Assembly: GCA_029781935.1 (NCBI GenBank)
Contig: JAKOVT010000063.1
Span: 1 to 64,000, forward strand
DNA: 64,000 bases
Direction: 5' to 3'
From: Actinomycetes bacterium
GTDB lineage: Bacteria > Actinomycetota > Actinomycetes > S36-B12 > CAIYMF01
Both the position numbers and the translations under genes were made by a program. A model generated the notes under the pieces. That model did not search any database. It worked only from the letters and a program-made list of their open reading frames with translations, and was not told the origin of the DNA. Below are positions 38,023 to 60,194 of this stretch, piece by piece (position 1 is the stretch's first letter; each line of letters opens with the position of its first letter).

Positions 38023-38023
38023 C

Positions 38024-41130: not shown

Positions 41131-44100
41131 GTGCAGCGCATGAACGGTGCGACGCAAGGCTGTGACGGCATGCTGTGGGGTGTCATCCCGCTGGCCCGAA
41201 CCACCGAGGTGGCGGAGATGGCGTATGTGCGCATGTCCGACAGGGAGGCTAGGGCCGAGCTGGGCCGCATGGTGGATGCACTCCGACGCACCTCGGACGG
41301 CGAGATGGCTGAGGTGCTTGCGGCGCTCGGGCCGTCCATCACGGAGGAGGGCGAACGAGGAGACGGGGACCGTTCAGCCGCCGGGCTTGTGCCGGTGACC
41401 TTGGCTGACCTCGATCCCCGCGCGAAGCCGAAGTTGTTGGCCTACGTCGGTGTGCGCGGCAAGGTACTCGTCGTCATCGTTCCCAGCAGCGCCATCGAGG
41501 ACAACCTCCCAGTCCTGCAGGGCGATCGCACGAAGACCGAACGCAACGCCGCCACCGAGTTGATCCTTGAGGCCGTCAACGTCCTGCCCCGCCTCGAGTT
41601 CCTCTGCACGCCTCGACTCGAACGCCTGTTCCGCACACCGAAGGGGCAGGGCGCCATCCTCGACGCATGCCGGGACGCCGACGTGCTCCTGGTCATCGAG
41701 GGCGTTCCGCGCGACCTCGCAGACACCGGCCAGATGATGACCACCTCTGTCGAGGGAATGGTCAAGGGCGACGCCGACGCCATCGCGCGCAAGAAGAACA
41801 TCATCGGGGGTCGAGTCGGCATCGTTGCGGCCGACTCCAAGGAGCACTCACAGCGTGATTTCGGTTACCACCAGTGTCCCTTGGGCTACCGACCCGAGCT
41901 CCGCACCGGTCCTGACGGCGTGACCGAAGTGGAGCGCGGCTCCATCCTCCTCAACGAGGAGCATGCGCCTGCCCTCAGGCGCATGTGGACGGAGTTCGCC
42001 AAGGGGACCCCAGTCGCCCACATCGCGGAGCTGGACGTCGTCAAGGACCTTCCGGCTCGCGACCGCAGTGGTCGGACGTTGCGAGACCTCACGAAGGGTA
42101 ACCGCCACAACGCCGTGTACCGGTTCTTCACCAGGACAAATCTCGAGTTGTACCGAGACGGGACATGGTGGCTGGAACGCAAGACCGGCGCTCCACTGAA
42201 GCAGGTCTCCGGATTCCCCCTCGTGAAGAGGGGCAAGAAGCGCGTTGCGACTGTCAAGGGATCCCTGCCTGTCCTTATGGTCGATGGTCTGCCCTGGGGT
42301 GTGCCAGACGAGTCCTGGAACTTGGCGGAGAAGCGGCTTCGGGACTCTGCCGACGAGACACCGGCGCAGCGTGGGGGCAAGCATGGCGAGGCTCTGCTCG
42401 CCTCCTCGGCTCCTTTCACGATGGACGGGGATCTGTACCGCGTCGTGAAGGAGCACAGCACGTTTCAGCTGCGTCGGATCGACGGTGGTGCGGGTGGTCG
42501 GTGGGATCCGAGCCAGTCTGTTCTGGTAGCGGCGGCCAACTGCCGCACCTTCTGGCAGTCCTTCGGACGTGCGCTCGGGGAGGGTTTGGTCGAGGTGGCC
42601 GGGCGGCTGAAGCCACTGACCTACGGCTCGGTGCGCGCGACCACTCCGGAAGGCATACCCGATTCCGTCGAGCGTCTCCTGGCGGACGCAGCCCAGCACG
42701 CGTCCGAGGCAGACGAGTGCGCCGAGAACGCGCGCGTGGCAAGGGCCGAGGGTAACGACCTCGTTCGTCAGCATTGGGAGCGCCAGCAGAACGGGTTCCT
42801 CCTCGAGGCGGAACGGCTCACGAAGGAAGCCGAAGCCGCACGTGAAGCATGGCTCGCCGCTCAGACCAAGACACCCGGGAACGTCCTCGACGTCGCTCAC
42901 CCGCTGGCTCTGGCCGCGGCGCTGGCGAAGTGGGACGGGTCGTACGACCCGGAGCTGCAGGCGGCAGTTCGTGCTCTGAACGTCCCGCCGAGCTTGACCG
43001 CCGAACTGACAGTAGCCGGCGAACTCCAGGTGACGTGCCGCGTCGAACTGGCATCGCTGGACGGAGGCAGCCTCCTTCTGGACATCACCTTCCGAGTTGC
43101 CAACACCAGCAACCAGCGAGACCTCGGACCGGACGCCGATCGCCTGGTGGCCCTCTGGGCCAGCACCTCTCTGACCATCCCAGAGCTGGCTGAAGCGACC
43201 GGCTACGCGCCGCGCACAGTCCGCAAGACCGTCTACTCCTGGCTCAAGCGCAACGGTGTGCCGGTCTTGGCCCTCGCACTCACGCTCTGCCCCGTCCAGG
43301 CCACGCGTGCTGCTGTCGCGTCGCATCTGCGTCCCGATCTGGTGGAGCCGCCGACGGTGGACGAGAGGGGCAATCCGGTCTCCGATGTCACACGGAAGTT
43401 CCTCGTCGCCATCTACCTCGCTGAGTCGCCCGGCGCCTTCCTCAAGGGCTGGACGCCTGCCGACCAGAGCGACGAGAGGCGAGTGGTGATGGCTCTCCGC
43501 CACGCCAATGCCGCCTGTGACGTGTCCCTGCTCGCCGCGGCAGCAGGCGTCGGCGTCGACTGGTCGCCCAGTAAGGACCGACCGCGCCCGTTCACCCTGG
43601 TCGGTGGCCGCCGGCGCCGACTCCTGGAGTGTCCCCATGAGGACTGTTCGTCAACCGTCGCCGATCACGTCCTCTACACACCCGAGACGGCGGTCGCTGG
43701 CGTGCTGTGTCGAACCTGCCGACGACTTCCGATCAAGGAGCTTGCCGACGTGGTGCTGCCGGTCGAGTACCTCGCTCTCTGGAATCGGGATGTTCACGCC
43801 GGGCGGGCTGACACAGTTCTGTTGTCCGCGGAAGAGATCAGCCCAGTTGATCTCGAGCTCGCCATGCGCGCAGGGAGGCTGGTGCGCATCCGAGAGGCCG
43901 CAAGGTTGGTCGGCCTGTCGGAAGACGCGTTCCGTGACCGCATCACGCGCGGCGAGCAGCCGGTGCACGTCACAGCCGGATCCAGTCGGTTCTTCGATCC
44001 GCACTTGCTGAAGGATGTCAGCGGGCCGCGGAAGGGCCCGCCGACGGTGCCCGCTGGATGGCTCTCCGTGGCACAGGTCGCACGACGTCTCGGGGTGCCC

Positions 44101-44397
44101 GAGTACCGGGTGCGCGAGTACTGCCAGGAAGGTCTCCTGGCGTTCAAGAAGGTCAGGGGGCGTATCTGCATCTCTCCCGCTGCGATGGCGGCAGTTGTCG
44201 TGCCGGAAGGAGACCTCCTGAGCTCGCTCTCCGTCGTCCAACTGGCGCGAGAGGCCGGCAAGACCAGGGGCCAGGTCGACTACGCGATGCAGCGCGGCTA
44301 CATCGCCACGGTCTACACGAGCCAGGGAACGCCGATGATCTCACGAGACGAGGCGAACCGATGGCTGTTGCGCATCAACGCTGCAGCGAAGGGCTAG
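41131..44397 (+). CDS. large protein: divergent serine-recombinase-like N-terminus plus Zn-knuckle and C-terminal HTH array (start uncertain, maybe 41218)
   Basis: PRLERLFRTPKGQGAILDACRDADVLLVIEGVPRDL...EGMVKGDADAIARKKNIIGGRVG...GYHQCPLGYRPE; CPHEDC..CRTC; SVAQVARRLGVPEYRVREYCQEGLL. Confidence 0.45.
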   Translation: MQRMNGATQGCDGMLWGVIPLARTTEVAEMAYVRMSDREARAELGRMVDALRRTSDGEMAEVLAALGPSITEEGERGDGDRSAAGLVPVTLADLDPRAKPKLLAYVGVRGKVLVVIVPSSAIEDNLPVLQGDRTKTERNAATELILEAVNVLPRLEFLCTPRLERLFRTPKGQGAILDACRDADVLLVIEGVPRDLADTGQMMTTSVEGMVKGDADAIARKKNIIGGRVGIVAADSKEHSQRDFGYHQCPLGYRPELRTGPDGVTEVERGSILLNEEHAPALRRMWTEFAKGTPVAHIAELDVVKDLPARDRSGRTLRDLTKGNRHNAVYRFFTRTNLELYRDGTWWLERKTGAPLKQVSGFPLVKRGKKRVATVKGSLPVLMVDGLPWGVPDESWNLAEKRLRDSADETPAQRGGKHGEALLASSAPFTMDGDLYRVVKEHSTFQLRRIDGGAGGRWDPSQSVLVAAANCRTFWQSFGRALGEGLVEVAGRLKPLTYGSVRATTPEGIPDSVERLLADAAQHASEADECAENARVARAEGNDLVRQHWERQQNGFLLEAERLTKEAEAAREAWLAAQTKTPGNVLDVAHPLALAAALAKWDGSYDPELQAAVRALNVPPSLTAELTVAGELQVTCRVELASLDGGSLLLDITFRVANTSNQRDLGPDADRLVALWASTSLTIPELAEATGYAPRTVRKTVYSWLKRNGVPVLALALTLCPVQATRAAVASHLRPDLVEPPTVDERGNPVSDVTRKFLVAIYLAESPGAFLKGWTPADQSDERRVVMALRHANAACDVSLLAAAAGVGVDWSPSKDRPRPFTLVGGRRRRLLECPHEDCSSTVADHVLYTPETAVAGVLCRTCRRLPIKELADVVLPVEYLALWNRDVHAGRADTVLLSAEEISPVDLELAMRAGRLVRIREAARLVGLSEDAFRDRITRGEQPVHVTAGSSRFFDPHLLKDVSGPRKGPPTVPAGWLSVAQVARRLGVPEYRVREYCQEGLLAFKKVRGRICISPAAMAAVVVPEGDLLSSLSVVQLAREAGKTRGQVDYAMQRGYIATVYTSQGTPMISRDEANRWLLRINAAAKG

Positions 44398-45343: not shown

Positions 45344-48300
45344 ATGAGCAAGACCGGCCACAGGACTCGCATCAAGGGGCCCATCGGCGCGCCGCACTCC
45401 TGCGACGATCTGTACGTAGACGGGCACGACTGCCCGGCCCGCCTCTTCGGGCACGCCGCAGACCATCTCGCCGACGACGACATCGTCGAAGCGTTCGCGC
45501 TCCTGGCCCACGGAATCAGCACCGACGACCTGGCCGCCGCCCTGTCCCTCATGCCGCGCGACTACCGCTCCAGCGTCCTGTCGCACTTCAACGTCCCCCC
45601 GGTGCGCAAGGTCGGCAGCGCCAGCCTCGAGCAGCTCCACCGTCGCGCCACCACAGGTGCCCACCAGCCTCGCTGCTTGATCGAACGGATAGCGCCGCCG
45701 GTGTACATGGCGCTCACGAACCTCGACATGCTGGGAGAGGACGAGCTGGTCGCGGCGCTCGACCCGACCCTGGAGCCGAATCGGGACTCCTTTCCGTTCC
45801 TGCTTTCGGCGCTGGGCTCCCGCCAGCTGCCGCCCACCGTCGTGCGGGCAGCCCTGGCCGGGACCCTCCTCGACGACAGCGTGCTGTCCCCGCTGGCCAT
45901 CGGATGGCTAGCGGAGGACCCCGGGCCCCTCCCCGACCAGCTCGTCGCCAGGCTCGCCGCTGCCTGGGCTGCGGTCCGTAGCGACCATCCGTCGCTGCCG
46001 CCGTCGCTGCGCCCCCTGTACGACCTCGTCCACAAGGACCACAACGACGCCCCGGTCGCACGCACCGCAGCGCCGGAGCCCGCCGCCGAGGCAGCGACCG
46101 CACCGCCGGAAGGAAGGGCCGAAGTGACCGAGCTCCCCGACGTGACGACGCCGGTCGCCCCCGAACGGGTCGAGGCTGCCCCGTCGCTGCCCGATGCTCT
46201 CGGGGACATGCTGGCCGCCGTCGAGGGGGCCGTCGACGGCATCGCCGACCGCCTCTCCGTCCTGGCCGCCCAGCTCGACGACGGCGTCTACCCGGACAGC
46301 ATCGCCGACGACGCCGCAGCCCTCACCGCGCTGGCCGTCGAGCTGGCTGGCGTCCGCGGGACCGGTGTCGTGCTGCGCACCAGCGCGGACATCGCCAGCC
46401 TCCGCGCGCGGCTGTCCGAGGGCTCCGAGCGTGCCCGCCGTCTCGCCCGGGCAGCGAGGATCGAGGGCCCCGAGAAGGTGGAGGACCTCCTGGCCGAGGT
46501 GCGCACCAACGCCCACGACCTCGCCGAGCACGCCGACGCCGTCCTCGCGCTCGTCGACCTCGTCGACCACGTCGCCGCCCGACCGCAGGACTCCGACGGC
46601 CTCGACGACCGGCACGCCGCCTTCGTCGGCGCCCGACCTGCCCACTGGGACCCGCTCACCCTGTACGCGGTCACCGGACGGCTCTCCCTGCCGGACGGCT
46701 CCCAGGAGCCGGTCATCGCGGCTGCGGAGGACGGGTCCGGGGAGCTCGACGATCGGTCCGCATCGGGGTCTGCCGGGGACGAGCCGGGGACGGCGCAGCC
46801 CGAAGCAGCGCCCGCACCGGCTCTCGACGCCATCCTCGACGACCTGGCCAGCTGGGCCGCAGCCCCGAACCCGTCGCCTGTGGGCGAGGCTCAGGCCCCG
46901 ACCCAGCCCAAGCCCGAGCCGGAGCCGACGGTCGAGCCGGAGCCCGAGCCCGAGCCGGAGACCCCGGCGCCCTCGCGTGCGGAGACGCCCGGCGAGACGA
47001 CGCCGGCCGACAGCCAGCCGCGGGATGGGACCGCCGCCACCGGCGCCGAGCAGGCGCCGACCCCCGCCGCCACCGACGACGGCACCACGACCACCCCCGC
47101 CGAGGCCGCCGCCGGGGACGACGCGCTCGCCGCCCGGATGATGGACGAAGGACGCGTCGGTCTCGCCGCCTGGCTCGCCGACGCGACCGGTGACCCCGCG
47201 CTCGCGACCGCCCGCCGCATGGCAGCCCTCGCCGGCCAGGTCCGCTCCCTGACCGGGCGCTGCGCCGGTGCCGTCGCCACCCTCGCCAGCACCCTCGACC
47301 TCGACGACCTCCCCGACGACCCGCGCACCCGGCTGCTGCTCGCAGCAGCAGCGGCCAGAGCCGGCATCGTCGCCCCGGGCCCGTCCACCACCGCCGCCCT
47401 CACCACCGTCGCACCCGCACTGGCCCCCACCTACCCGCGCACCGCTGCCATGCTGTCCGCATACGCCCAGGCCGCCGCCACCGGCGTCCTCATCCTCCCC
47501 GTCGCCGACACCGCCCGAGCCGCCAACGAGGCCGCCACCTCCCGCGCCGAGTCCTCCGCCGCAGCCCGACGCCTGCTCGTCGAGGGCCCCAGCCGCACCG
47601 TGCGCTACCAGCTCGCCACCGCCGTATGGACCACCTGGATCCGCCCCGACGGGCTCCTCGGCCGCGCCGTGTCCGTCGCAGCCGACGACGACGACGACAG
47701 AATCGACATCGTCGACGAGGTCCTCGACAAGCTCGGCGACGACCACCGCATCGACCGCGAGGTCGACCTCGCAGCCACCGCGCTGCGCCGATCGAGCAGC
47801 CGCAGCGAGGCGATCATCTCCCGCGCCCGCGAGAAGCTCCTCGCCCTCATCGCGGAGGCGCTCGACATCCTGCGCCAGTGGCGCGACGACGTCCGCGAGT
47901 GCGAGGTCGTCGAGCAGGCGTCGCCACGGTCTTGGCAGGCGGGCCCGCTCGCCGAGCTGCGCAAGGCGGTCGCCGAGCACACCGACGCCAGCGCTGCGGA
48001 GACCGACGGCGACGGTGACGTCGCCGAGGCCGCACGCCTCATCGCCCAGGCCGGCGCCATCCTTGCCGGCACGGCCGTCGAGGGCGACGAGCCCGACCCC
48101 GACCGCATCCTCAACGGCGAGCTCCTCGCCATCCCCGAGCTCCCGCTCGAGAGCACCCGCCTGGCCCCCGTCCGAGCCGCCACCCTCGACGAGGTCGCCT
48201 CCGCCGCGCAATGCCCGCCCGACCCGCTCACCTGGTACGAGCGGCGCGCGGCCGTCGACGACCACCAGGCGACCGCCGTCCTGCTCACGATCATCCGCGA

Positions 48301-51300
48301 GACCGACCCCGACACCGCCGCGCGCCTTGCCGCATCCCGGGAGCAGGCCGTCGCCGGCGCCGTCGCCCGTCGCGAGACCGAGCACGCCCGTCTTTCGTCC
48401 GAGATCGACTCCGCCCTGCGCCACGGCCTCCTCGACGACGCCGAATGGGGCGTGCTCACCGCCAGGCTCGCAGCGCTCGCAGCCCCCGGTCGACTCGACT
48501 TCTCCACCGTCGCCGCCGGCCACGCCGCCCTCGCGTCCGCGCTCGACGTCGGCCGCGACCGCGCCCGCGACCGCGCCCGCGCCCGCCTCGAGGATAAGGC
48601 AGCTGCCGACCAGCGCGTCGCCGCCATCCGCGACCGGCTTGCCGAGCGCATCGCCGACGACGACCTCACCGCCTTCGAGGAGTACCTCGCCCTGGCAACC
48701 ACCGGCCAGGATCTGCCCGCACCGCGTAGCACCACCGACCACCTCGCCCGCTTCTTCCCCTCGTTCCCCCGCACGGTGCTCGCCGCAAGGACCGGCCGGT
48801 CCCGCAGCAGCGTCGAGATCATCCGCGCCCTCGAGAGCGCCCTGGCCGCACCCGCCACCGCCCACGGCTCCGACGCGCTCTCCGAGCTCCTCACCAGCGC
48901 CGGGATCGCCCTGGCCGCCCTCCCCGAAGCCCGGCGCGTCAACGCCGCCAGTGCCCTTGCCAAGTGGCGCGGCCTGTCGCAGGGACCCAAGAGCGGCCAG
49001 CCCGAGACCGCGCTGCACGCCGTCCTCGCCCTCGCCGGGCTGTCCTTCACCTCCGTCGAGGCGCTCGCCGAGGGCCGCGCCCGCGACCGCCAGATGTTCG
49101 AGCTGCGCGGGGTCTCTGGGTCCGGCCGGGCGATGCTGCCCGCGTTCGGCAGCGCCATGAGCCCCACCGGCGACACCCTGCGCGTCGCGATGGTGTGGGG
49201 CGCCCCCGACCCCGTCACGCTCGTCGACGGATACAGCGGCCAGCCGACCGACCGCACGCTGCTCACCCTGTACTTCGGCACCCTCGGCGTCGACGAGCGC
49301 CGAATGCTCGCCACCGCTGCCCGCCGCCGCCGCCGCCCCCCCGTCGTCGTGTTCGATGACGCCTCCCTCATGTACCTGGCCTGCCAGGACACCCACACGC
49401 GAGAGGCTGCGATCGCGGTGCTCGCCCCGTTCTCCGGGGTCGCGCCGTTCACCCCGCTCATGGCCGGCGACGTCCCCCGCGAGATGTTCTACGGGCGCAC
49501 CGAGGAGCTCGCCTCGGTCATCGACCCGCACGGCTCCTGCTTCGTGTCCGGCGGCCGACAGCTGGGCAAGTCAGCGCTGCTGCGCGCCGCCGCCCGGCGT
49601 TTCGACGACGGCTCCACCAGGCGCGCCGCCGTCGCCAGCATCTTCAGCATCGGGAGGTCCGCCGAGACCGACCGGCTGTGGCCGACTCTGTGGGCCCAGC
49701 TGGCCGACATGGGCGTCCTGGACGGCGTGTGCCCGCTGGACGACCCCGCTCAGGCGTTCCGCGACGCGGTCGCGACCTGGCTGGCCGCAGACCCGCACCG
49801 CCAGTTGCTGCTCCTTCTCGACGAGGCCGACGCGTTCCTCGACGAGGACTCCCGCGACGGGCACTTCCCGTGCGTGCACCTGTTCCGCCAGATGATGGAG
49901 GAGTCCGGCCGACGGGTGAAGATCGTGTTCGCCGGCCTGCACCAGACCGCCCGGTTCGAGCAGCTGGGCAATCAGCCGCTCGCCCACTTCGGCAGCCCCG
50001 TCTCCGTCGGCCCGCTCAACGCCCAGGCCGCCTACGACCTGCTCACCGAGCCGATGCGGACGCTGGGGTACCGGTTCGCCGACGAGAGCGTCCCCAGCCG
50101 CGTCCTGGCACTGGCGAACAACTCGCCCGCCCTGATCCAGCTGTTCGGCGCCGCGCTGCTCGAGCGGCTGATGAAGGTCCCCATGCCCGTCGACGGGCCG
50201 CCGGTCACCGTCACCAGCGACGACATCGAGCAGGTCTGGGCCGACCAGGAGCTCATGGACGACTTCCGCAGCCGCTTCGAATGGACCCTCAACCTCGACC
50301 CGCGCTACAAGGTGATCGCCTACCGCATCGCGTACGGGGCGCTGGCCGACGGGCCCGATACCACCATCCGCTCCGCGGACCTGCGCGCGTTCTGCTCCGA
50401 GCTGTGGCCCACCGGCTTCGCCACCTGCACGACAGACGAGTTCCGCGGCCTGCTCGGCGAGTGCGTCGAGCTCGGCGTGCTCACCAAGGTCGGCGACGGC
50501 TACCGGCTGCGGTCCCCGAACGTGCTGCGGCTTCTCGGCACCCTCGACGAGGTCGAGGCCGTGCTGCTCGAGGCGCAGAACTACCCGGCGCCTGCGGTGT
50601 TCGACGCCGCCGCCTACCGTCCGCCGTTCGCCGGCAGCGTGCGCCGCAGCCCCCTGTCGGACGCGCAGTCCCGCGAGATCCTCGCCCGCCGCGACCAGAT
50701 CCACGTCGTCTCCGGCTCCGCCGCGCTGCGCCTCGAGCGCGTCCCGAAGGCCCTGGAGGAGGCCGCCGCCCAGACCGGGCACGTCACCGTCCACCACGAC
50801 GGCCGCAACGGCAAGCTCGCAGCGCTGGCCGCACGCGCCGCGGCCGGCGACGGGCACCACGTGCTCGTCGTCGACCTCGCGCGCACCGGGACCGCCGACG
50901 CCGACGCGGTCGTCGCCGAGGCCGTCTCCGTGCTCGCCGACCCGCACCGGGGGACCCTGTCCGTGGTGCTGCTCGCCGACCCGGTCCACGCCCCGCTGTG
51001 GCTGGCCGCCGGGCGCGGCGACAGCCCTGCATCCCTGGTCGAGCTCGGCCGTCTCGACGCGACAGCGGTCCGGCTCTGGATGGCCGAGGCCCCGCTGCCG
51101 TTCCAGAATGGGACCTCCCAGGCAGGCTTGGTCGCCGCGACCGGAGGATGGCCGCTTCTGCTCGACCGTGTCGTCGAACCGATCTCGGAGGGCCTGGCGT
51201 CCCCCGACGCGGAGCTCGCCACGCTGTCGTCCCGCCTGGACGACGCCCAGTACGCGGGCGACGTGCTTACGGCCGCCGGGCTGACCGGCGACGGCCCGCT

Positions 51301-51535
51301 CGCGCAGGCGTGGAAGGCCCTCGTCGAGCTCGACGAGCCAGCCAGCGCCGTCGAGCTGGCCGCCCTGCTGGAGACCTACGACGAGCTGACGCCTTCGCGC
51401 CTGGCCGGCGCCGGCTACCGCAGCGTCTCCGACGTCGTCGAGGCCCTGCGGATCGCCGGGGCGCTCGCCGTCGACGCCACGGCCCGGTTGTCCTGCGAGC
51501 CGGTGCTGGCGCGTGTCACCCGGACCGCGTCGTGA
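45344..51535 (+). CDS. 2063-aa P-loop ATPase (AAA/STAND-like) with long N-terminal region
   Basis: Walker A SGGRQLGKSALLRAAARR; Walker B RQLLLLLDEADAFLD; PEPEPEPE linker; start at ATG 45344. Confidence 0.8.
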   Translation: MSKTGHRTRIKGPIGAPHSCDDLYVDGHDCPARLFGHAADHLADDDIVEAFALLAHGISTDDLAAALSLMPRDYRSSVLSHFNVPPVRKVGSASLEQLHRRATTGAHQPRCLIERIAPPVYMALTNLDMLGEDELVAALDPTLEPNRDSFPFLLSALGSRQLPPTVVRAALAGTLLDDSVLSPLAIGWLAEDPGPLPDQLVARLAAAWAAVRSDHPSLPPSLRPLYDLVHKDHNDAPVARTAAPEPAAEAATAPPEGRAEVTELPDVTTPVAPERVEAAPSLPDALGDMLAAVEGAVDGIADRLSVLAAQLDDGVYPDSIADDAAALTALAVELAGVRGTGVVLRTSADIASLRARLSEGSERARRLARAARIEGPEKVEDLLAEVRTNAHDLAEHADAVLALVDLVDHVAARPQDSDGLDDRHAAFVGARPAHWDPLTLYAVTGRLSLPDGSQEPVIAAAEDGSGELDDRSASGSAGDEPGTAQPEAAPAPALDAILDDLASWAAAPNPSPVGEAQAPTQPKPEPEPTVEPEPEPEPETPAPSRAETPGETTPADSQPRDGTAATGAEQAPTPAATDDGTTTTPAEAAAGDDALAARMMDEGRVGLAAWLADATGDPALATARRMAALAGQVRSLTGRCAGAVATLASTLDLDDLPDDPRTRLLLAAAAARAGIVAPGPSTTAALTTVAPALAPTYPRTAAMLSAYAQAAATGVLILPVADTARAANEAATSRAESSAAARRLLVEGPSRTVRYQLATAVWTTWIRPDGLLGRAVSVAADDDDDRIDIVDEVLDKLGDDHRIDREVDLAATALRRSSSRSEAIISRAREKLLALIAEALDILRQWRDDVRECEVVEQASPRSWQAGPLAELRKAVAEHTDASAAETDGDGDVAEAARLIAQAGAILAGTAVEGDEPDPDRILNGELLAIPELPLESTRLAPVRAATLDEVASAAQCPPDPLTWYERRAAVDDHQATAVLLTIIRETDPDTAARLAASREQAVAGAVARRETEHARLSSEIDSALRHGLLDDAEWGVLTARLAALAAPGRLDFSTVAAGHAALASALDVGRDRARDRARARLEDKAAADQRVAAIRDRLAERIADDDLTAFEEYLALATTGQDLPAPRSTTDHLARFFPSFPRTVLAARTGRSRSSVEIIRALESALAAPATAHGSDALSELLTSAGIALAALPEARRVNAASALAKWRGLSQGPKSGQPETALHAVLALAGLSFTSVEALAEGRARDRQMFELRGVSGSGRAMLPAFGSAMSPTGDTLRVAMVWGAPDPVTLVDGYSGQPTDRTLLTLYFGTLGVDERRMLATAARRRRRPPVVVFDDASLMYLACQDTHTREAAIAVLAPFSGVAPFTPLMAGDVPREMFYGRTEELASVIDPHGSCFVSGGRQLGKSALLRAAARRFDDGSTRRAAVASIFSIGRSAETDRLWPTLWAQLADMGVLDGVCPLDDPAQAFRDAVATWLAADPHRQLLLLLDEADAFLDEDSRDGHFPCVHLFRQMMEESGRRVKIVFAGLHQTARFEQLGNQPLAHFGSPVSVGPLNAQAAYDLLTEPMRTLGYRFADESVPSRVLALANNSPALIQLFGAALLERLMKVPMPVDGPPVTVTSDDIEQVWADQELMDDFRSRFEWTLNLDPRYKVIAYRIAYGALADGPDTTIRSADLRAFCSELWPTGFATCTTDEFRGLLGECVELGVLTKVGDGYRLRSPNVLRLLGTLDEVEAVLLEAQNYPAPAVFDAAAYRPPFAGSVRRSPLSDAQSREILARRDQIHVVSGSAALRLERVPKALEEAAAQTGHVTVHHDGRNGKLAALAARAAAGDGHHVLVVDLARTGTADADAVVAEAVSVLADPHRGTLSVVLLADPVHAPLWLAAGRGDSPASLVELGRLDATAVRLWMAEAPLPFQNGTSQAGLVAATGGWPLLLDRVVEPISEGLASPDAELATLSSRLDDAQYAGDVLTAAGLTGDGPLAQAWKALVELDEPASAVELAALLETYDELTPSRLAGAGYRSVSDVVEALRIAGALAVDATARLSCEPVLARVTRTAS

Positions 51536-53562
51536 GCAGGCGCAGCAGCGACCGGGCGCTGGTCGTCCGGGCGCTCGGCCCCGCGCTCGCGATGCTCGAG
51601 GAGCGCCTGCCCGGCATCACCTCCGACGTCCCGGCGCTGCTCGCCCACCGCGGCGGCTCCGTCGTCGACGCCGCTGCCGCCGCCGGGCTGGTCTCAGGAG
51701 CCGAGCTGGTCCGGCTGCGCAAGCTCGTCGCCGACGACGGTCTGCGCGCATCGGTCCTCCTGCCCGCCCTCGCCGCCCCGTCCGAAGCTGCTGAACCGTT
51801 AGCGCCGCCACCCGCCGCCCCGGCGTGCACCGACACGACGCATCGGCGGCTGCTCGCCAAGGTCGACGACCTCACCGCCAAGCGCGACCTGTGGAAGGGG
51901 CGGTACGACAACCTCGTCGCCGAGCGCGACGGGCTGATGTCGGAGTCCGCGACCCTCAACGCCACGATCTCGGCGCTGCAGGCCACCCTCGACGAGCGGG
52001 ACCGCCTCCTGCGCCTGGCCGACCAGCGCGCTTCCAGCGTCTCCGACGTCGCCCGCACGCTGAGCGACCTGCTCTCCGGCGCTGGCGGCGACCCGCGCGA
52101 GATGGAGCAGCGCGCGCTCGGCCAGGCCGACGACCCCGTTGCTGCCTCGCTCGAACCGACCGGGGTGACCCGCGAGCAGCTCGCCGCCGCCCTCGACGGC
52201 CTCGTCGCAGGGCCCCCCGCGCCCGTCGTCGTCGTCCGCGAACGGACGTTGCGCGTGACCCCGCTCGGCGGCGGGACCGAGATCGGCGGCTCCGCCATCC
52301 TCGTCGAGGCCGGCGGCACCCGGGTCCTCGTCGACGCCGGCATCCGCCCGCAAGGCGGAACCAACGCCGAGCTGGCGCCGCCGCAGATCGCCGCCGCGCT
52401 CGACGGCCCGCTCGACGCCATCGTCGTGACCCACGCGCACAACGACCACGGCGGATACATCCCCGCGCTGCTCGCGCAGCGTCCCGGGGTCCCCGTCCTC
52501 GCCAGCCCCGGCACCGCCGCCCTCCTGCCGACCATGTGGCGGGACTCGGCGAAGGTGTACGCCAACCGCACCGAGACCGAGCAGCGGTACGGCCTCGCCC
52601 GCGACGTCCTGTACGGGCCCGTCGAGGTCGCCCTCGCCGAGAACTGCCTGCGCAGCGTCCCGCTCGGCCGCCCCACCGCCGTCGGTCAGCTCACCATCGA
52701 GCTCTTCGCCGCCGGGCACATCGTCGGCGCGGCGGGTGTCGTCGTGGCCGCGGGCGGCGAGCGCGTCGTTGTGACCGGCGACATCGCCGGCTTCCCCCAG
52801 GCGTCCGTCGGCGGCTACGCGCTGCCCGAGTCGGCCGTCGGCGCGGATCTGCTCGTGCTCGAGACGACGTACTGCGGGGAGGCCCACCGCCGCCGCGAGG
52901 ACGAGGTCGCCCGCCTGATCGCGACCATCGCCGACGTCGTGTCCGCCGATGGGCGGGTCCTCGTGCCCGCGTTCGCCCTCGGGCGCGCGCAGGAGGTCGC
53001 GCTGAGCATCCACCAGCACCTGCCCGACGTGCCCGTGCTCGTCGACGGGATGGCCCGCGAGGTCTCGACGCTGGTCACCGCCCACACCGGGACCGCGGTG
53101 ATCACCGGGAACATCTCACGAGTCGGGGACCGGGTCGCCGCCATGCGTAACTTCCGCAGCGGCGTCGTCATCTCGACCTCCGGCATGCTCACCGGCGGAC
53201 CCGCCGTGGCCTGGGCCCACGAGATTCTGCCCGACCCCGCGGGCGCCCTGCTGCTGTGCGGCTACCAGGACGAGGAGTCCCCCGGCCGCGCGCTGCTCGA
53301 GCTGGCCGACTCCGCCGGGGACCGCAAGCTCCGCCTGCCCGGCCGGGACCGCGACACGGTCGTCGACGTGCGCGCTCGCGTGGACCGGTTCGGACTCTCG
53401 GCCCATGCCGACCGCGACGGGCTGCGGCGGATCGTCGACGAGGTCTCGCCGTCAGCCGTCATGCTCGTCCACGGGTACCCGGCCAAGCAGCGGCAGTTCG
53501 GCGAGCTCCTTGCGATGCACGGGCACGCGGTCGTCCCCACCGGGCCGTGGGGCGCCGACTAG
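51532..53562 (+). CDS. beta-CASP metallo-beta-lactamase nuclease with N-terminal coiled coil
   Basis: VVTHAHNDHGGYIPAL; GHIVGAAGVVV; VVTGDIA; GNISRVGDR; FGLSAHADRDGL; GTG start overlaps upstream TGA (GTGA). Confidence 0.85.
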   Translation: MSRRSSDRALVVRALGPALAMLEERLPGITSDVPALLAHRGGSVVDAAAAAGLVSGAELVRLRKLVADDGLRASVLLPALAAPSEAAEPLAPPPAAPACTDTTHRRLLAKVDDLTAKRDLWKGRYDNLVAERDGLMSESATLNATISALQATLDERDRLLRLADQRASSVSDVARTLSDLLSGAGGDPREMEQRALGQADDPVAASLEPTGVTREQLAAALDGLVAGPPAPVVVVRERTLRVTPLGGGTEIGGSAILVEAGGTRVLVDAGIRPQGGTNAELAPPQIAAALDGPLDAIVVTHAHNDHGGYIPALLAQRPGVPVLASPGTAALLPTMWRDSAKVYANRTETEQRYGLARDVLYGPVEVALAENCLRSVPLGRPTAVGQLTIELFAAGHIVGAAGVVVAAGGERVVVTGDIAGFPQASVGGYALPESAVGADLLVLETTYCGEAHRRREDEVARLIATIADVVSADGRVLVPAFALGRAQEVALSIHQHLPDVPVLVDGMAREVSTLVTAHTGTAVITGNISRVGDRVAAMRNFRSGVVISTSGMLTGGPAVAWAHEILPDPAGALLLCGYQDEESPGRALLELADSAGDRKLRLPGRDRDTVVDVRARVDRFGLSAHADRDGLRRIVDEVSPSAVMLVHGYPAKQRQFGELLAMHGHAVVPTGPWGAD

Positions 53563-53614: not shown

Positions 53615-54865
53615 TCAGTGTCGCCGAGGAGCCCCCACCTCGACGTCGGCGAGCAGCTCCGGCAGCAGCGATTCCTCGAACACTGCAACCCCCGCCGCCG
53701 CGATCGCGGCACGCAGTTCGTCGTCCCAGCATGACGCGAGCGCCACATGAACCTCTGCCGCCCCGCCTCGTGAACGCCCGAGCTCGTAGTGCGCGGCATC
53801 CATGCGCCACGGCACCGCACCCGGCACGCCCGCGAGCAGCGCACCCGCGATCGCCAGCCCTGCCCCGTCGAAGTCCGCCCGCACCGCCACCCGCCAGCCG
53901 GCGGAGACCAGGCGCGCGACCGCCTCCACCTCCAACGCCGACACCGTCCCCGAGGTGCACAGCACGCGGGCCCGCGGCGAAGCGGCTGAGGCCGCGGCAG
54001 CGGTGAGCACCGAGGGGTTCTCCGTCACGAACACCCACGACCCCGACACCGCCGGGCGCTGCCAGACGCAGTCGCGCAACGTCCGCGGGGGCAGCGTCGC
54101 CACCGCCCCGTCCGGCAGGCTCCAGCCCTTCGGCCAAACACCCAGCGACACCAGCCCGCCGGTCAGGTCGTCGCCGAACACCCCGAGCGTCTCCCATGTC
54201 CTGGCGCCGCGCCGTCCCGCGAGCCCGGCCAGGGCCAGCACCAGCCCGGCCAATGGGGAGCCCGCGTCGAGGGCGTGCGGGTCGCCGGGCACCAGCGTGC
54301 GTCGGTCCACCTCGCGTCCCGGCTCCGGCAGCCGCGCCAGCACGTCGAACGCAGACCGCAGCGCAGCCTCCGGGGTCGGCCCGTTCTGCAGCCGCGCCAG
54401 CCACCCGGAGCGGGCGAACGCCTCCCAGGTCAGCACGTCCGGCGCCGTGGCCGGCAGCTGCGAGCGGAGCTGCCCGAACACCTGCTCCAGCGACGCGCGC
54501 TCGCTGCGGTGCGCCTCCTGCTGCGCCGCGCGGACCGCCAGGGGCCGCCCGACCGCGTGCGCCGCGACCGCCCCCGGCGTCAGGTCGGCACCGCGCATCC
54601 GCACCGCCGCCGTCAGGTGCTCCAACGGCAGCCGTCGGGTCTGCCCGGCTGCCAGCGGCTTCCCTGGGACGAGCCCCGCGGCAACGGCGCGCTCCTGCGC
54701 CGGGACGGGGATCCGCAGCGTCACGGTGCCGAGGGTCATCGTCGCATCGCCGCGCCGGTCGCCCGCTGCCGCGACCTGCTCCCACAGCCAGAGCAGCGAG
54801 GGGACGAGCAGCGGGTCGAGGTCGGCGCCGCCGCACGCACCGCCGCACAGCCGGCAGCTGCTCAC
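53615..54865 (-). CDS. jetD: DUF2399/TIGR02679-like protein (Wadjet JetD-type, TOPRIM-like)
   Basis: GWRVAVRADFDGAGLAIAGALL...PWRMDAAHYEL; GTG start overlapping the jetC-like stop. Confidence 0.8.
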   Translation of the reverse strand: MSSCRLCGGACGGADLDPLLVPSLLWLWEQVAAAGDRRGDATMTLGTVTLRIPVPAQERAVAAGLVPGKPLAAGQTRRLPLEHLTAAVRMRGADLTPGAVAAHAVGRPLAVRAAQQEAHRSERASLEQVFGQLRSQLPATAPDVLTWEAFARSGWLARLQNGPTPEAALRSAFDVLARLPEPGREVDRRTLVPGDPHALDAGSPLAGLVLALAGLAGRRGARTWETLGVFGDDLTGGLVSLGVWPKGWSLPDGAVATLPPRTLRDCVWQRPAVSGSWVFVTENPSVLTAAAASAASPRARVLCTSGTVSALEVEAVARLVSAGWRVAVRADFDGAGLAIAGALLAGVPGAVPWRMDAAHYELGRSRGGAAEVHVALASCWDDELRAAIAAAGVAVFEESLLPELLADVEVGAPRRH

Positions 54866-57800
54866 AGGTACGCCTCGTCGCCGGGCAGGTCGTCCTCGCC
54901 CCGGACCAGCATCGGGAACGCGACGACCATCCCGTCGCTGGCCGCCTCGAGGTCGTGGGCGTCGACGCCGTCCCACGCACCCGGCGCCCCGTCCCACAGG
55001 TAGGACGTGCAGATGAGGTCTAGGTCCAGCGACGCGATGTAGCGGGCCAGGCCTTCGCGGCCGAGCTCGTCGACCTCCGCGGGCACCTCGTCCAGTGCCG
55101 CCAGGCGCAGGCTGCGGGAGTCGAAGTTGTCGAACGTCGCCGCGAGCGCCGCCAGCATCGGGGCGAGGACGACCAGGCGCCTCTCGCCGCCGGACAACCC
55201 CGTGCGGCCCGTCCACCGCTCCGGGGCCCGGCCCGGCCGCTGGACCTGGTAGGTGACGTCGAGCCAGTCCCGGATGTTCACCGCCGCGGCGACCCGCTCG
55301 ACCATCGTCTCGCCGGGTGCGGAGTCGATCAGCCGGCGCAGCGCCTGGCCGACCTCGACGCGCTGCTCCGGGGAGCGGACAGCGTCGGAGATCTTCGCCG
55401 CCAGCTGGTACACGGTGCGCTGGGTCGCGTCCAGGTCGTCGCGCACGACCGAGCGGACCTGCACACCGACGCCGGAGGACGCCGACGCCTCACGCATCTT
55501 GCGGTTCACGACGTCGACCCAGTCGGTGACGGTCGTGAACGCCGTCCCGATCTCGGTCGGGAGCCGTCCGATGACGAAGTCGTTGAGGGCCGTGGTCTCC
55601 GCCGCGGTCAGCGCCTCCTCCGCCCGCTTGCGCAGGTCCTCGGCGCGCGCGGCTGCCTCCGGCGGCGCGTAGCGGGTGTCCTCATGGGTGGCGACGAACG
55701 TTGTGAGGTCCAAGTGCTCCTCGCCGAAGTCCAGGCTCCACACGCCGGAGAGGGCCGAACGGACCGCGTCGAACCGGGTCACGATCGAGCTGCGCGTCAA
55801 GGTCCGCCCACCGATCCGCGACTCGACCAGGTCGAGCAGCTCGTCGTCAGGCGTCTCGTCGAACGCCGGCAGCGTCAGCGCGTCGGCGACGCCGGGCCCG
55901 CGCAGCAGCAGCCGCAGCTCCTCGACCCGTTGCGTCGCGACCGGCCCCTGCTCCTCCTGCGCGATCTGGAGGCTGCGCAGTTGCTCCTCGACACGCGCCT
56001 GCGTCTCGCGCGCCTCGGTGACCTCCTGGGCCTGGCCGGGCCTGCTGTCGCGGAACAGCTTGTGGGTGGTCTGCGCCTCCTCGAGCAGCTTGATGACGTC
56101 GACCGAGCTCTTGGCCGCCGCCTCCTCGCGTGCGGCGATCGTCGCGTCGAGACCGGCGAGCTCGGACTGGTCGTCGCGCAGCCGCTGGACGCTGCCGGGC
56201 AGCGCCTCGACGTGCCCGGCGAGGGAGGAGACCCGCCGCCCGAGCCGTGCAGCGCTGCCGCCGATCCGGTCGCGCAGCTCGCGCGCGGCCCCTTCGAGCG
56301 CCCTCGCGCCGCGCTCTCCGCGGCTCTCGATGCTGCGCAGCCGGTCGACGTCCGCAGGGAGGTCCTGTCCACGGGTGCGTGACGCCCACGTCGTGGTCGC
56401 GGTGTCCAGGTCGGTCTGCGCGTCCCGCTCGTCGGCCTCGGCCTCCTCGAGCTTGGCCTGCGAGACGTTTGCCGCCTTCGCGGCCTGCGAGCGCTCGGCC
56501 TCCGCTGCGCGAAGCCCACGCAGGTCGGGGAATCGGGAGCTGAGCGTCTCCACGCGCGCGGCGCGGGCACGAATGCCCCGCGCATCGGCCTCATGGTCCT
56601 GCGCCTGCTCGTCGAGCGCGGCTGCCTGCTCGTCCAGCCGAGCTGCCTCCTGCAGGGCGCGCTCGCGTCGCTGACGGCTGCCGATGAACTGGCTCGCCGG
56701 TGCCTGTCCCGGCCCAACCGGGTCCGCGGTCAGCACCCCCGCCCGCCAGGAACCGTCGACCGCGACGGCCAGCGCGCGGTCGCCTGCGTCGGCGAGCCGG
56801 TCGAGCAGCGGGATCCGCTCGAGCACCGCTGCAGCGGTCGCGGCGCCGGGGTGGTCGGCGTCGACGGTGATGACCTGGGCCAGCGAGCGGGCCGCCGGCT
56901 CGCCGGTGGCCGTGACCGCCCAGCTGTCGGTCGCGGCCCCGTCGGCGCTCAGCGACGCCGCCAGGGCGCCCATGCTCGCCAAGGCGGCCTCGACCCGGTC
57001 GCGCACCGCGGCGGGCGCGTCGTCCCGCCAGTCGAGGGCGGCGCCGAACGCCCGGTCGTCGTCCCCGTCGCCGGCCCATGCGGGCCGGGGGAACGGCAGC
57101 AGCTGACCGTCGCGCAGCGACTGGGCCGCGTCGCGCAGCCCGGTGGCCTCGGACCGCAGCGTCCGCGCCTGCACGTCGAGACCCTGGGCCTCGGCCCGCA
57201 GGGTCGCTGCGGCGGTCGCGGCGGTCGCGGCGACCGAGGCGGACCACGTCTCGAGCGCCGCCAGGACGCCGCTGGGCTCATCGGTGCTGTCGAGCTCGAC
57301 GAGCAGGTCGTCCCGCTCGGTGTCGACGGCGTCGGAGAGCAGCGCCGCCGCCTCCTCGGGCGTGCTCCACGCGACGAACGCCTCGCGGGCCCCGTCGCGG
57401 GCCTCGTTGGCCGCAGCCGTCGCCGAGGCGCGCAGCGTGCGCCGGTCCTCCGCCTCGGTCTCCGCCCGCTGCCGCTTCTCCACGGCCGTCCGCAGCCGGC
57501 GCTGTGACGGCGCGACGGAGGACTCGTGGTCGCCCAGCGCCAGGGACGCAGCCCGCGCCCGGCGGCGCTGCTCCTGCGCCGTCTGCTCGCAGCGCGCCCG
57601 GGCTGCGTCGAGCGCCTGCTGGTCGATGGCGACACGGACGTCGGGGCCGGGGTCGTAGGAGTCCTCGCCGATCTGGATCACCGCGCGCGGCGCCTTCGTC
57701 GCGGTCACCACCGGGCTGGTCTCGACGTCGCCGAGGTGCTCGGCGACACCCGCGAGCAGCGACGCGAACTCCGACTGGAGCGCCTCGGCGGCTTCGGCGA

Positions 57801-58974
57801 CGTACTCGCCGTCGTCGTGGACGGTTCTGGTCAGGCGCACCAGGTCGGTGGCGGCCTGCTGAGCCTGCGACACGAGCCCCACCCGCCGCTCGCGCATCTC
57901 GCGCAGCTCGCCGGCGTCGCGGTACTCGTCGCTGCCCTTATACCCCTCGATGGTGGCCCCGAGCTCGAGGATCTGTGCGTCGATGTACTGGAGCCGCTCC
58001 TCGGCCTGGTTCGCGGTGTCCTGCGCCTTGCGCAGCTCGCGCAGCTTCCCGGCGACCTGGCTCTGCGTGCGAGCGTGGAGCGCACGGGCCTCCCGCGCGG
58101 TATGCAGCCGTCCGCGAACGGTGTCGCCGACGTACGCCGCCCAGTCGTTCGCGAACTCAGCCAGGTGGCGCGCCGCTTCACGGTCCCGGTCGAAGGCCCG
58201 GCGGGTCTCCTCGGACTCCTCGAGCGCGTCGGCGGTGGCCTTCACGATCTCGTCGCCGACGCCGGGCAGCGACTGGCGCAGCGCGTCCGCGGCACCCTGC
58301 GGGGAGATCTCGCCGAGCAGGCTGGGGTTGCGCACCTGCCGGATCTGCTGGGCGAGATCGCGGACCGCGGCGCCCTCCACGCCCCACACGGCGCGGGCCA
58401 GGTCGTTGATGTAGGCATCGTCGGACGGGAACACCCGACCGCCGCCGTCCTCGACCAGCGAGGCGAACTCGTCCGGCGACAGCGTCGTGGTCGTGGGGAT
58501 CGCGAAGGTGTCGAACGGGATGCCCGGGACGGTGAACGGGACGACCTTGACCTGCGGGGAGGTGTTGGGGGAGTACGCCAGCCGGACGCCGTAGGAGTGG
58601 ACGGCCTGCTCGTCGGGTGCGGCGAAGCTCAGCCAGGCGAACCCGACCCGGCGCTTCCCGTCGGCGCCCTCCTTCATCAGCGACGACAGGTTCGTCCGGC
58701 GGGCGGTGCCTGCCGACAGCCGCTGGGCGTTGAGGTCCAGCAGGTACGGCCACAGCGCCTCGAGTGCGGTGGTCTTGCCGGTACCGTTCGGTCCGCGCAG
58801 CAGCAGCCTGCCGCTGGGCGCCGGGAGGGTCAGCAGCCCGTAGCGCCATACCTGGAACAGCCCTGCGCCGACCAGGCGCCAGCGGCCGCCGAACCGGTCG
58901 GCGTTCCCGGCCGGCGGGGCTGACGGCTGGTCGTACAGGTCGTCGAGGTCGCCGGGGTCCAGCGTGGTCGTCAT
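54862..58974 (-). CDS. jetC: TIGR02680-like SMC/SbcC family ATPase (Wadjet JetC-type)
   Basis: GRLLLRGPNGTGKTTALEALWPYLLDLNAQRLS; long coiled coil; TGLSGGERRLVVLAPMLAALAATFD; LAALDEVPAEVDELGREGLARYI. Confidence 0.88.
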   Translation of the reverse strand: MTTTLDPGDLDDLYDQPSAPPAGNADRFGGRWRLVGAGLFQVWRYGLLTLPAPSGRLLLRGPNGTGKTTALEALWPYLLDLNAQRLSAGTARRTNLSSLMKEGADGKRRVGFAWLSFAAPDEQAVHSYGVRLAYSPNTSPQVKVVPFTVPGIPFDTFAIPTTTTLSPDEFASLVEDGGGRVFPSDDAYINDLARAVWGVEGAAVRDLAQQIRQVRNPSLLGEISPQGAADALRQSLPGVGDEIVKATADALEESEETRRAFDRDREAARHLAEFANDWAAYVGDTVRGRLHTAREARALHARTQSQVAGKLRELRKAQDTANQAEERLQYIDAQILELGATIEGYKGSDEYRDAGELREMRERRVGLVSQAQQAATDLVRLTRTVHDDGEYVAEAAEALQSEFASLLAGVAEHLGDVETSPVVTATKAPRAVIQIGEDSYDPGPDVRVAIDQQALDAARARCEQTAQEQRRRARAASLALGDHESSVAPSQRRLRTAVEKRQRAETEAEDRRTLRASATAAANEARDGAREAFVAWSTPEEAAALLSDAVDTERDDLLVELDSTDEPSGVLAALETWSASVAATAATAAATLRAEAQGLDVQARTLRSEATGLRDAAQSLRDGQLLPFPRPAWAGDGDDDRAFGAALDWRDDAPAAVRDRVEAALASMGALAASLSADGAATDSWAVTATGEPAARSLAQVITVDADHPGAATAAAVLERIPLLDRLADAGDRALAVAVDGSWRAGVLTADPVGPGQAPASQFIGSRQRRERALQEAARLDEQAAALDEQAQDHEADARGIRARAARVETLSSRFPDLRGLRAAEAERSQAAKAANVSQAKLEEAEADERDAQTDLDTATTTWASRTRGQDLPADVDRLRSIESRGERGARALEGAARELRDRIGGSAARLGRRVSSLAGHVEALPGSVQRLRDDQSELAGLDATIAAREEAAAKSSVDVIKLLEEAQTTHKLFRDSRPGQAQEVTEARETQARVEEQLRSLQIAQEEQGPVATQRVEELRLLLRGPGVADALTLPAFDETPDDELLDLVESRIGGRTLTRSSIVTRFDAVRSALSGVWSLDFGEEHLDLTTFVATHEDTRYAPPEAAARAEDLRKRAEEALTAAETTALNDFVIGRLPTEIGTAFTTVTDWVDVVNRKMREASASSGVGVQVRSVVRDDLDATQRTVYQLAAKISDAVRSPEQRVEVGQALRRLIDSAPGETMVERVAAAVNIRDWLDVTYQVQRPGRAPERWTGRTGLSGGERRLVVLAPMLAALAATFDNFDSRSLRLAALDEVPAEVDELGREGLARYIASLDLDLICTSYLWDGAPGAWDGVDAHDLEAASDGMVVAFPMLVRGEDDLPGDEAYL

Positions 58975-60194
58975 GCGAGTCCTCCGTGCGGCTCGTCGGC
59001 CGTCTCGCGGGTGGTCGGGGTGCGCCGTCCGTGCGTCGCGGGCGGCTTCCATCGGGCGGCCGCTGGCGACAGCCACCAGGTCGCGTCATCGAGGCGGAGC
59101 AGCGCGAGCCCGGTCAGCAGTCGGGCGATCTCGTCGGCGAGGTGTGTCAGGTCGGTGGCGTACTCGGCGGCCCACCCGCCCTTGCCGGTCGAGAACCGCA
59201 GGGAGAGCTCGCCCAGGCGGGCCAGGACGTCCTCGTAGTCCAGGCCCCGCCAGCCGAGCCGTTCGGGGTGGGGGCGTCCGGCGGCGAGGATGTTGTCGAT
59301 GGTGAGCAGAGTCGCCTGCCCGACGGTGCCGGGCACCGGGAACGGGAACGGCCCCAGCTCGTGGGGGTGGCGCCACACGCCGTCGGGGACGACGAACGCC
59401 GCCCCTTCGCTGCGCCGCTCGAGCCGCAGCCCGAACGCTGCCGCCAGCGGCTGCCCGTCGTCGCCGCGGACGCGGCGCCGCAGCCAGTCGGACTCGTCCT
59501 CGTCGAGGTCGTCGGCGTGGATCAGCGTGTCGTCGACGAGCCGGCGCCGCATGCGGCGGGCGGCGTCGCTCTCCCGCTCGGCCGCGTTCAGCCAGCCCGA
59601 CGGGTTCTCGATCGGGTCGAGCGGCGGGAAGTTCGCGACCACCTCGAGCAGGCGCGTGTGGTGGATGGCGAGCAGGACGTGCGCCTCCTCGACGTGGAGG
59701 TAGGTGGAGACGTCGCCGTCGACCTCCTCGATCACGCCGCGTTGGTCGAGCATCTTGAGCGCCTCGATGATCGCGCGCCGCTCGTCGATGAGGCCCGTGG
59801 ACGGCACCCCTGCCTCCGCGGCTGCCGCCCGCGCCGCGCTGACCAGCGAAGACATCGCCACGCGCGGTGGGAGCGTCTCCGCGCCGGCGACCAGGCAGTA
59901 GTACCAGGCGGCGGTCAGCGGCTTGGGTCCGTCAGCGGCGAACTCCGTACGCCGCGGCGGCGGGGACTTGCGCAGCCGGACGAAGTCGCGCTGGACGACC
60001 AGGGCCCAGCCGAGCCGGCCGAAGGTCTCACCGAGCTCGGCGCGGTGCCGGCGGACGGCGGCGATCGCGTCGTCGTCCCTGCCCGCAGACAGCCAGCAGC
60101 GCCGCGCCAGCAGCCGTGCGAGGTAGGCGCGCTCGTCGTCCGCCTCGGGCGCCCACGCCTTGCGCCGCCGGACCTCGGGCCCCGTGACGGTCAT
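58971..60194 (-). CDS. jetB: DUF2398/TIGR02678-like protein (Wadjet JetB-type)
   Basis: ERAYLARLLARRCWLSAG...FGRLGWALVVQRDFVRLRKSP; ATGA overlaps on both sides. Confidence 0.8.
   Translation of the reverse strand: MTVTGPEVRRRKAWAPEADDERAYLARLLARRCWLSAGRDDDAIAAVRRHRAELGETFGRLGWALVVQRDFVRLRKSPPPRRTEFAADGPKPLTAAWYYCLVAGAETLPPRVAMSSLVSAARAAAAEAGVPSTGLIDERRAIIEALKMLDQRGVIEEVDGDVSTYLHVEEAHVLLAIHHTRLLEVVANFPPLDPIENPSGWLNAAERESDAARRMRRRLVDDTLIHADDLDEDESDWLRRRVRGDDGQPLAAAFGLRLERRSEGAAFVVPDGVWRHPHELGPFPFPVPGTVGQATLLTIDNILAAGRPHPERLGWRGLDYEDVLARLGELSLRFSTGKGGWAAEYATDLTHLADEIARLLTGLALLRLDDATWWLSPAAARWKPPATHGRRTPTTRETADEPHGGLA

Follow-up and report, generated by a model that had tools for sequence, protein, structure and literature searches.

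Organization of the locus

The stretch of DNA analysed here (the window; 64,000 nucleotides of contig JAKOVT010000063.1, from an Actinomycetes bacterium) carries on its forward strand two overlapping genes for a giant ATPase (P0001) and a beta-CASP metallo-beta-lactamase (MBL; P0002), which an earlier note, made from the letters alone, had put forward as a candidate defence system.

45344..51535, + strand: giant ATPase gene (P0001), 2063 amino acids; reading frame open, partner shared by 40 close homologues
51532..53562, + strand: beta-CASP MBL gene (P0002), 676 amino acids; reading frame open, Pfam and fold matches
51532..51535, + strand: GTGA stop/start overlap of 4 nucleotides, the GTG start of P0002 lying over the TGA stop of P0001

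The open 2063-residue frame and the GTGA overlap are as the earlier note described them, and the overlap, as read from the sequence, is a translational coupling of the two genes. The pair does not correspond to a named system in the collections searched: the PADLOC scan (E <= 0.01) left both P0001 and P0002 without a match, and NCBIfam gave no match for P0001 and no model reaching its cut-off for P0002.

The giant ATPase

The following features of P0001 were delineated from its sequence, a conservation profile and AlphaFold (AF2) models (AF2 confidence is given as the predicted local distance difference test, pLDDT).

45344..47104, + strand: residues 1-587, helical N-terminus and Pro/Glu linker of low complexity, weakly conserved (conservation profile)
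47105..49033, + strand: residues about 588-1230, conserved region predicted to be entirely helical (AF2, pLDDT about 92)
49037..49393, + strand: residues about 1232-1350, putative small alpha/beta domain with a PAFGS-MSPSGD motif (model, conservation)
49478..50185, + strand: residues about 1379-1614, predicted AAA+/STAND-like P-loop ATPase domain (AF2 model, Foldseek)
49550..49576, + strand: Walker A, GGRQLGKSA, residues 1403-1411 (sequence)
49805..49843, + strand: Walker B, LLLLLDEADAFLD, residues 1488-1500 (sequence)
50216..50530, + strand: residues about 1625-1729, winged-helix-like lid (AF2 secondary structure)
50660..51529, + strand: residues about 1773-2062, predicted second AAA-like alpha/beta domain, then a helical/winged-helix end (AF2 model)

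Searched by sequence alone, P0001 found no relative in the PDB, and Pfam returned a weak AAA_22 match (residues 1396-1533, E 1.7e-4) that lies under the curated cut-off. The AF2 model of residues 1090-2063, built on an alignment of 60 P0001 homologues, has a mean pLDDT of 91.9. It is read as a helical segment followed by the small alpha/beta domain, the AAA+ domain and a winged helix, after which come a second AAA-like domain and a terminal helical/winged part; past AAA+, the domains are named from secondary structure and order, without separate fold matches. The last three of these would account for the extra C-terminal domain that the earlier note had left unassigned. For the AAA+ region, the best Foldseek matches in the PDB were 2QEN, 2QBY and 2FNA, which comprise two Walker ATPases from archaea (2QEN, 2FNA) and Cdc6/Orc1. 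Both Walker motifs are intact, as first noticed: across the 60 homologues the GGR, L, G and K of Walker A and the catalytic D of Walker B are invariant, and the E of Walker B is kept in at least 90%. In its predicted fold P0001 thus shares with STAND/AAA+ proteins the Walker A and B motifs, the AAA-like fold and the winged-helix lid, but not the C-terminal superstructure-forming repeats of the STAND type, since its helical region is N-terminal and its C-terminus is the second AAA-like domain, in which no Walker A was found by sequence. A fold search of the conserved helical region (residues 588-1230) against the PDB gave no match with E <= 0.001. The small alpha/beta domain looks restriction-endonuclease-like by eye in the model, and no catalytic (D/E)xK was seen in it.

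The beta-CASP protein

51532..52236, + strand: P0002 residues 1-235, N-terminal part of variable sequence that looks like coiled coil by eye (alignment of copies)
52249..53511, + strand: residues 240-660, MBL, beta-CASP and RMMBL nuclease domain, CPSF73/aCPSF1-like (Pfam, PDB, NCBIfam)
52432..52449, + strand: HAHNDH metal-binding motif, residues 301-306 (sequence, alignment)

The beta-CASP hallmarks reported for P0002 are borne out by Pfam matches above cut-offs to PF00753 (Lactamase_B), PF10996 (Beta-Casp) and PF07521 (RMMBL), and by the HxHxDH, GD, SAHAD and LVHG motifs, which are kept in nearly all of the 41 paired copies. The N-terminal third, which had been called coiled-coil, is plausibly so by eye for about residues 104-170, whereas region 1-235 as a whole is poorly conserved. 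Among solved structures, P0002 is closest to archaeal FttA/aCPSF (3AF5, 2.8e-39), Integrator 11, TTHA0252 and CPSF73, and the Cas14 structure 8YHD was also matched. Among NCBIfam models below threshold, aCPSF1 (197.8 bits, cut-off 580) and type VII Cas14 (NF045584, 185.9 bits, cut-off 800) lead, compared with 71 bits (cut-off 325) for the DNA-repair exonuclease model TIGR04122 and 30.5 bits (cut-off 400) for RNase J. Because the nearest structures and the leading sub-threshold models are CPSF-like, P0002 is, judged by these relatives, of the CPSF73/aCPSF1 type and not of the RNase J type; it is a predicted nuclease and probably an RNase.

Conservation and distribution of the pair

A scan of GTDB species genomes with the ATPase alignment A1 gave 556 relatives, of which 80 were kept, so that the ATPase family comprises at least 556 loci. 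All 40 of the closest ATPase homologues, which come from other actinobacteria (L011-L048, L052, L064), are directly followed by a beta-CASP gene. Counting the window, 33 loci have an ATPase called over its full length; in 32 of these the beta-CASP frame offers a start codon at -4, and in the remaining one at -8. The distances among ATPases and among beta-CASP proteins are congruent (Mantel r 0.93, 0 of 2000 permutations as high), and the ATPases with a beta-CASP partner form a single clade (Shimodaira-Hasegawa-like approximate likelihood ratio test, 100). A profile search found both proteins in 71 of 73 fetched loci with a beta-CASP match, a figure that includes repeat fetches of the same genomes and is less safe than a count of the 40 loci and the window; two ATPases missed by tblastn (L121 and L024) were recovered by hidden Markov model. 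The two loci with a beta-CASP match only are L002, a different, housekeeping-type paralogue, and L136, a DISARM-like operon; the profile had been built including L002 and L082, whose own scores are therefore inflated. The pair is a real conserved unit.

It is also accessory. At E <= 1e-60, P0002 has relatives in 10 of the 395 genomes of its class; among Streptosporangiaceae (e.g. Microbispora, Planomonospora) the figure is 23 of 201, one genome having two copies; within the genus the pair is confined to 1 of 11 genomes, the window's own, the other match there being the housekeeping-type L002. The genes flanking the pair vary from genome to genome, and relatives of the ATPase were found on 27 plasmid records, while a search of a phage collection gave no match to P0001. 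These data bear on a housekeeping or regulatory role in RNA processing, in which the beta-CASP protein would act in termination or mRNA decay in the manner of aCPSF1/FttA or Integrator and the ATPase would serve as a remodelling factor. The best structural and profile relatives of P0002 (aCPSF1/FttA, Int11, CPSF73) speak for such a role, but the curated aCPSF1 and RNase J scores are below cut-off, P0002 is far from universal in its lineage, and this patchy spread argues against housekeeping, as do the variable neighbours, the plasmid records, the exchange of partners within the ATPase family and the recurrence of DISARM neighbours (both below). We regard this explanation as very improbable.

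DISARM-linked loci

In 7 of the 40 loci (L015, L018, L020, L038, L039, L040 and L043) a DrmA helicase gene lies 3' of the beta-CASP gene on the same strand, with scores of, for example, 2e-104 by PADLOC (L015) and 1.7e-96 by NCBIfam (L039), both under the NCBIfam equivalog threshold. A DrmB-like protein follows DrmA in six of the seven (PADLOC 8.6e-31, L039), the L038 locus ending before this position. A DrmE-like protein of about 800 amino acids precedes DrmA in L039, L040 and L043 (NCBIfam DrmE_fam 1.1e-11, L043), and proteins of similar size and position are found in L018, without a DrmE match, and in L038. Right after DrmB, five of the six extended loci encode a protein of 207-277 amino acids with the phospholipase D (PLD)-type HxKxxxxD motif, as expected for DrmC on motif evidence; the idea that the beta-CASP protein substitutes for DrmC was dropped on this account. 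A motif scan revealed no obvious methyltransferase after drmB in the six extended loci. The spacing is tight in the Geodermatophilus operon L039, with 29 nucleotides between the beta-CASP and DrmE-like genes and 8 between DrmA and DrmB. In L136 (7308-18720), a beta-CASP gene (52% identity) directly precedes genes for a DrmE-like protein, DrmA and DrmB, and the ATPase is absent from the 20-kb region. In Nonomuraea, Planomonospora, Planotetraspora and Microbispora (L012, L013, L016, L017, L019) the pair is faced by a divergent set comprising a kinase, a DrmD-like helicase and a IIG-type or DrmMI-like methylase, as identified by models checked on L016 only.

DISARM adjacency requires at least four changes on the ATPase tree, and DrmA of the L039 type is rare (5 of 395 class genomes); together with the seven loci, this makes a chance placement of these neighbours unlikely. 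Clustering in defence islands without functional cooperation would be favoured by the general tendency of defence genes to cluster and by the 33 of 40 pair loci in whose fetched flanks DISARM genes are absent. Against this stand the same strand and 3' order in seven loci from several actinobacterial families, the small gaps in some of them, the rarity of DrmA in the background and the L136 operon, and we consider such fortuitous clustering possible, if doubtful. A link between the ATPase/beta-CASP pair and DISARM appears to be undescribed.

Other partners of the ATPase family

Outside the beta-CASP clade, other ATPase lineages are directly followed by a HEPN-like protein of 325-408 amino acids; in all 8 cases this protein has the HEPN RNase motif RNx[LI][AS]H towards its C-terminus. 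Some lineages are instead preceded by a DinG/RecQ-like helicase and a protein of about 750-800 amino acids to which neither PADLOC nor Pfam gave a name.

L005:20862-22016, L006:21024-22157, L053, L073, L077, L080, L082, L089: HEPN-like partner loci from diverse phyla (RNxLAH/RNxLSH/RNRIAH)
L049-L088, e.g. L054:3-12832: three-gene set of a DinG/RecQ-like helicase of about 1400 amino acids, the 750-800-residue protein and the giant ATPase

In Brasilonema the giant ATPase is followed by a PLD-SNF2 helicase, and on an Azospirillum plasmid (L009:7752-20925) it is fused to a pPIWI_RE module (3256 amino acids), preceded by a pPIWI_RE_Z ATP-binding protein. In Edaphobacter (L082) a HEPN gene lies downstream of the ATPase, and upstream of it is a gene for a distant beta-CASP protein. 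Partner type is strongly clustered on the ATPase tree, with 11 changes against a shuffled mean of 31.8, and this partner-swapping family appears to be undescribed. A domain common to the HEPN partners and the second AAA-like domain of the ATPase was considered and found unsupported by hhalign. As separate observations, the HEPN partner on a Salinibacter plasmid lies near a type I-E CRISPR locus, and on a Euzebya plasmid (L007:20517-23204) an 895-residue uncharacterised protein immediately 3' of the giant ATPase is possibly another partner type.

Genomic neighbourhood of the pair in the window

30306-36764, + strand: Shango-like locus with a TerB_N/TerB_C protein (SngA 4e-89), a BrxD-like ATPase (NCBIfam BrxD 5e-44) and an SngC/BrxHI helicase (1e-277)
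36916-40756, + strand: SbcD/Mre11-like phosphoesterase, then SbcC/SMC-like ATPase, directly after the Shango genes
41131-44397, + strand: protein of up to 1088 amino acids with several helix-turn-helix (HTH) domains, including excisionase/MerR-type (mad1 9e-15)
53615-61687, - strand: Wadjet-type operon, with JetC (E 0) and JetB (8.8e-146) by PADLOC, JetA and JetD by position only

The pair sits among Shango-, Wadjet- and restriction-like genes, and PADLOC gave no match of P0001 or P0002 to Sng or Jet models. It had been placed between a Shango-like and a Wadjet-like locus: the Wadjet operon does follow directly, whereas the SbcD/SbcC-like pair, which may extend the Shango-like locus, and the HTH gene separate it from Shango. 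This HTH gene was rejected as a third component, a relative (25%) lying upstream of the pair in 1 of the 40 loci (L040). Elsewhere in the window, 12403-14295 (- strand) encodes a 630-amino acid protein with strong PADLOC matches to Orf5, HEC-06, type IV methyl-directed restriction and SspE.

Discussion

From the intact motifs, the conserved pairing and overlap, the co-inheritance, the patchy spread, the DISARM adjacency and the exchange of partners in the ATPase family we infer, with a probability of roughly 0.6, that the two genes make up a single anti-mobile-element, most likely anti-phage, module combining sensing, complex formation, gating and the cutting of nucleic acid, RNA being the likelier target. 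The ATPase would be the sensor or switch, its long helical N-terminal region recognising or binding an invasion signal, and ATP binding or hydrolysis in the AAA+/STAND-like domain, together with the second AAA-like domain and the winged helices, would alter its assembly state. Because translational coupling implies a complex, the ATPase may bind the co-translated beta-CASP protein, perhaps through the variable N-terminus of the latter, and keep the nuclease off until infection leads to its release or recruitment. The active CPSF73/aCPSF1-like zinc enzyme would then cut nucleic acid, with RNA (phage or host transcripts) likelier than DNA because its nearest relatives are RNases and an RNase motif is present in the HEPN partners of sister lineages. 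The module may, in some actinobacteria, cooperate with DISARM-like DrmE-A-B-C, which would load on foreign DNA. The loading of DrmAB on DNA, and its damping by methylation, have been reported (PMC9142583), and where DrmAB is present the pair could act downstream of this recognition.

Several points weigh against this reading. The choice between RNA and DNA cannot be read from the sequence, and beta-CASP enzymes include DNases; the role of sensor is suggested by architecture, the N-terminal region having no fold match. With regard to DISARM, most paired loci lack these genes in the fetched flank, as given above, the DrmE and DrmB matches fall short of NCBIfam cut-offs, and a search of the window genome with the L039 DrmA gave no match at E <= 1e-60. 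The comparison of flanks in Streptosporangiaceae, in which 127 PADLOC families were matched at 1e-15 near the pair and 34 at arbitrary loci (19 pair loci, and 20 arbitrary loci from five of the same genomes, 123 flank genes each), is suggestive, a few kinases and helicases matching many models.

A DNA target is kept in consideration because of the DISARM association and the possibly DNA-binding winged helices. The beta-CASP protein could then be an SNM1/Artemis-like DNase degrading invading DNA that the ATPase or DrmAB has unwound or marked. This would fit the action of DISARM on DNA (PMC9142583) and its seven loci next to the pair, the adjacent Wadjet and SbcCD-like genes, which act on DNA, and the Cdc6/Orc1-like AAA+ plus winged-helix relatives of the ATPase core, but P0002 is similar to the RNase branch (CPSF73/aCPSF1, type VII Cas14), its TIGR04122 score is low and the sister partners are HEPN proteins with an RNase motif, so that we hold DNA targeting to be rather unlikely. 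A toxin-antitoxin or abortive module, in which the nuclease would attack host RNA and the ATPase, a plain inhibitor, would stabilise plasmids or islands without sensing phage, is suggested by the overlapping genes, the presence of the family on plasmids and the nuclease-like partner. In this pair, however, the ATPase gene comes first, is 2000 codons long and retains conserved catalytic motifs, antitoxins known to us are far smaller, and the DISARM adjacency is a further point against such a module, which we judge unlikely.

The anti-phage reading can be set against known systems. Beta-CASP nucleases have central roles in archaeal termination and in the 3' processing of eukaryotic mRNA, and we know of none in prokaryotic defence outside type VII CRISPR. 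P0002 shares the MBL, beta-CASP and RMMBL domains and the catalytic motifs with aCPSF1/FttA, Int11, CPSF73 and TTHA0252 but, unlike them, is accessory, patchily distributed and operonic with an ATPase. In type VII CRISPR-Cas the CPSF-like beta-CASP protein Cas14 is the nuclease effector (PMC10910872); P0002 resembles it in its beta-CASP domain (185.9 bits to NF045584, PDB match 8YHD) but has a variable N-terminus, in contrast to the Cas10-like C-terminal domain of Cas14, and a giant ATPase partner, and neither Cas7 nor Cas5 is among the genes flanking the window pair on either side, which have other assignments by Pfam, PADLOC and NCBIfam. As in STAND/AVAST-type, Avs, Septu, Gabija and Hachiman-MBL systems, a P-loop ATPase is predicted to be coupled to a nuclease. 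MBL-fold nucleases associated with Avs, Lamassu, Hachiman and DRT are ComEC-like, encoded upstream and activated by a trypsin-like protease (PMC12799240), whereas the window enzyme is a beta-CASP protein encoded downstream of its ATPase, with no protease, and no PADLOC Avs model matched the pair (E <= 0.01). The pair resembles DISARM loci in having DrmA, DrmB, some DrmE-like and usually a PLD gene 3' of it in the seven linked loci, but the ATPase and the beta-CASP protein are no DISARM components and the window has the pair alone. With pPIWI_RE systems it shares the ATPase family, through the Azospirillum fusion; no PIWI gene was found beside the window pair, and a term search of the pPIWI_RE paper (PMC3702460) found no mention of such an ATPase. 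A literature search, whose coverage mostly excluded subscription papers and preprints, found no paper linking DISARM to beta-CASP or describing the pair. Defence by an ATPase plus a nuclease is itself known; what appears new here is an ATPase family that exchanges its partners, and the use of a CPSF-like nuclease in a setting other than CRISPR.

A broader proposal, which we offer tentatively and hold to be possible rather than probable, is that the giant ATPases form a widespread class serving as a common control hub for antiviral beta-CASP, HEPN, helicase and pPIWI_RE effectors, of which the beta-CASP branch would be the RNA-cutting arm of a methylase-free DISARM. If so, an operon of the ATPase, beta-CASP, DrmE, DrmA, DrmB and DrmC would join DNA recognition to RNA destruction, which raises the question of how methylase-less DISARM-like operons discriminate self from non-self. 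From the point of view of the family, these findings would define ATPases that switch among HEPN, helicase, pPIWI_RE and beta-CASP partners, and a non-CRISPR defence pair, if confirmed as such, would represent a second route for the beta-CASP fold into immunity.

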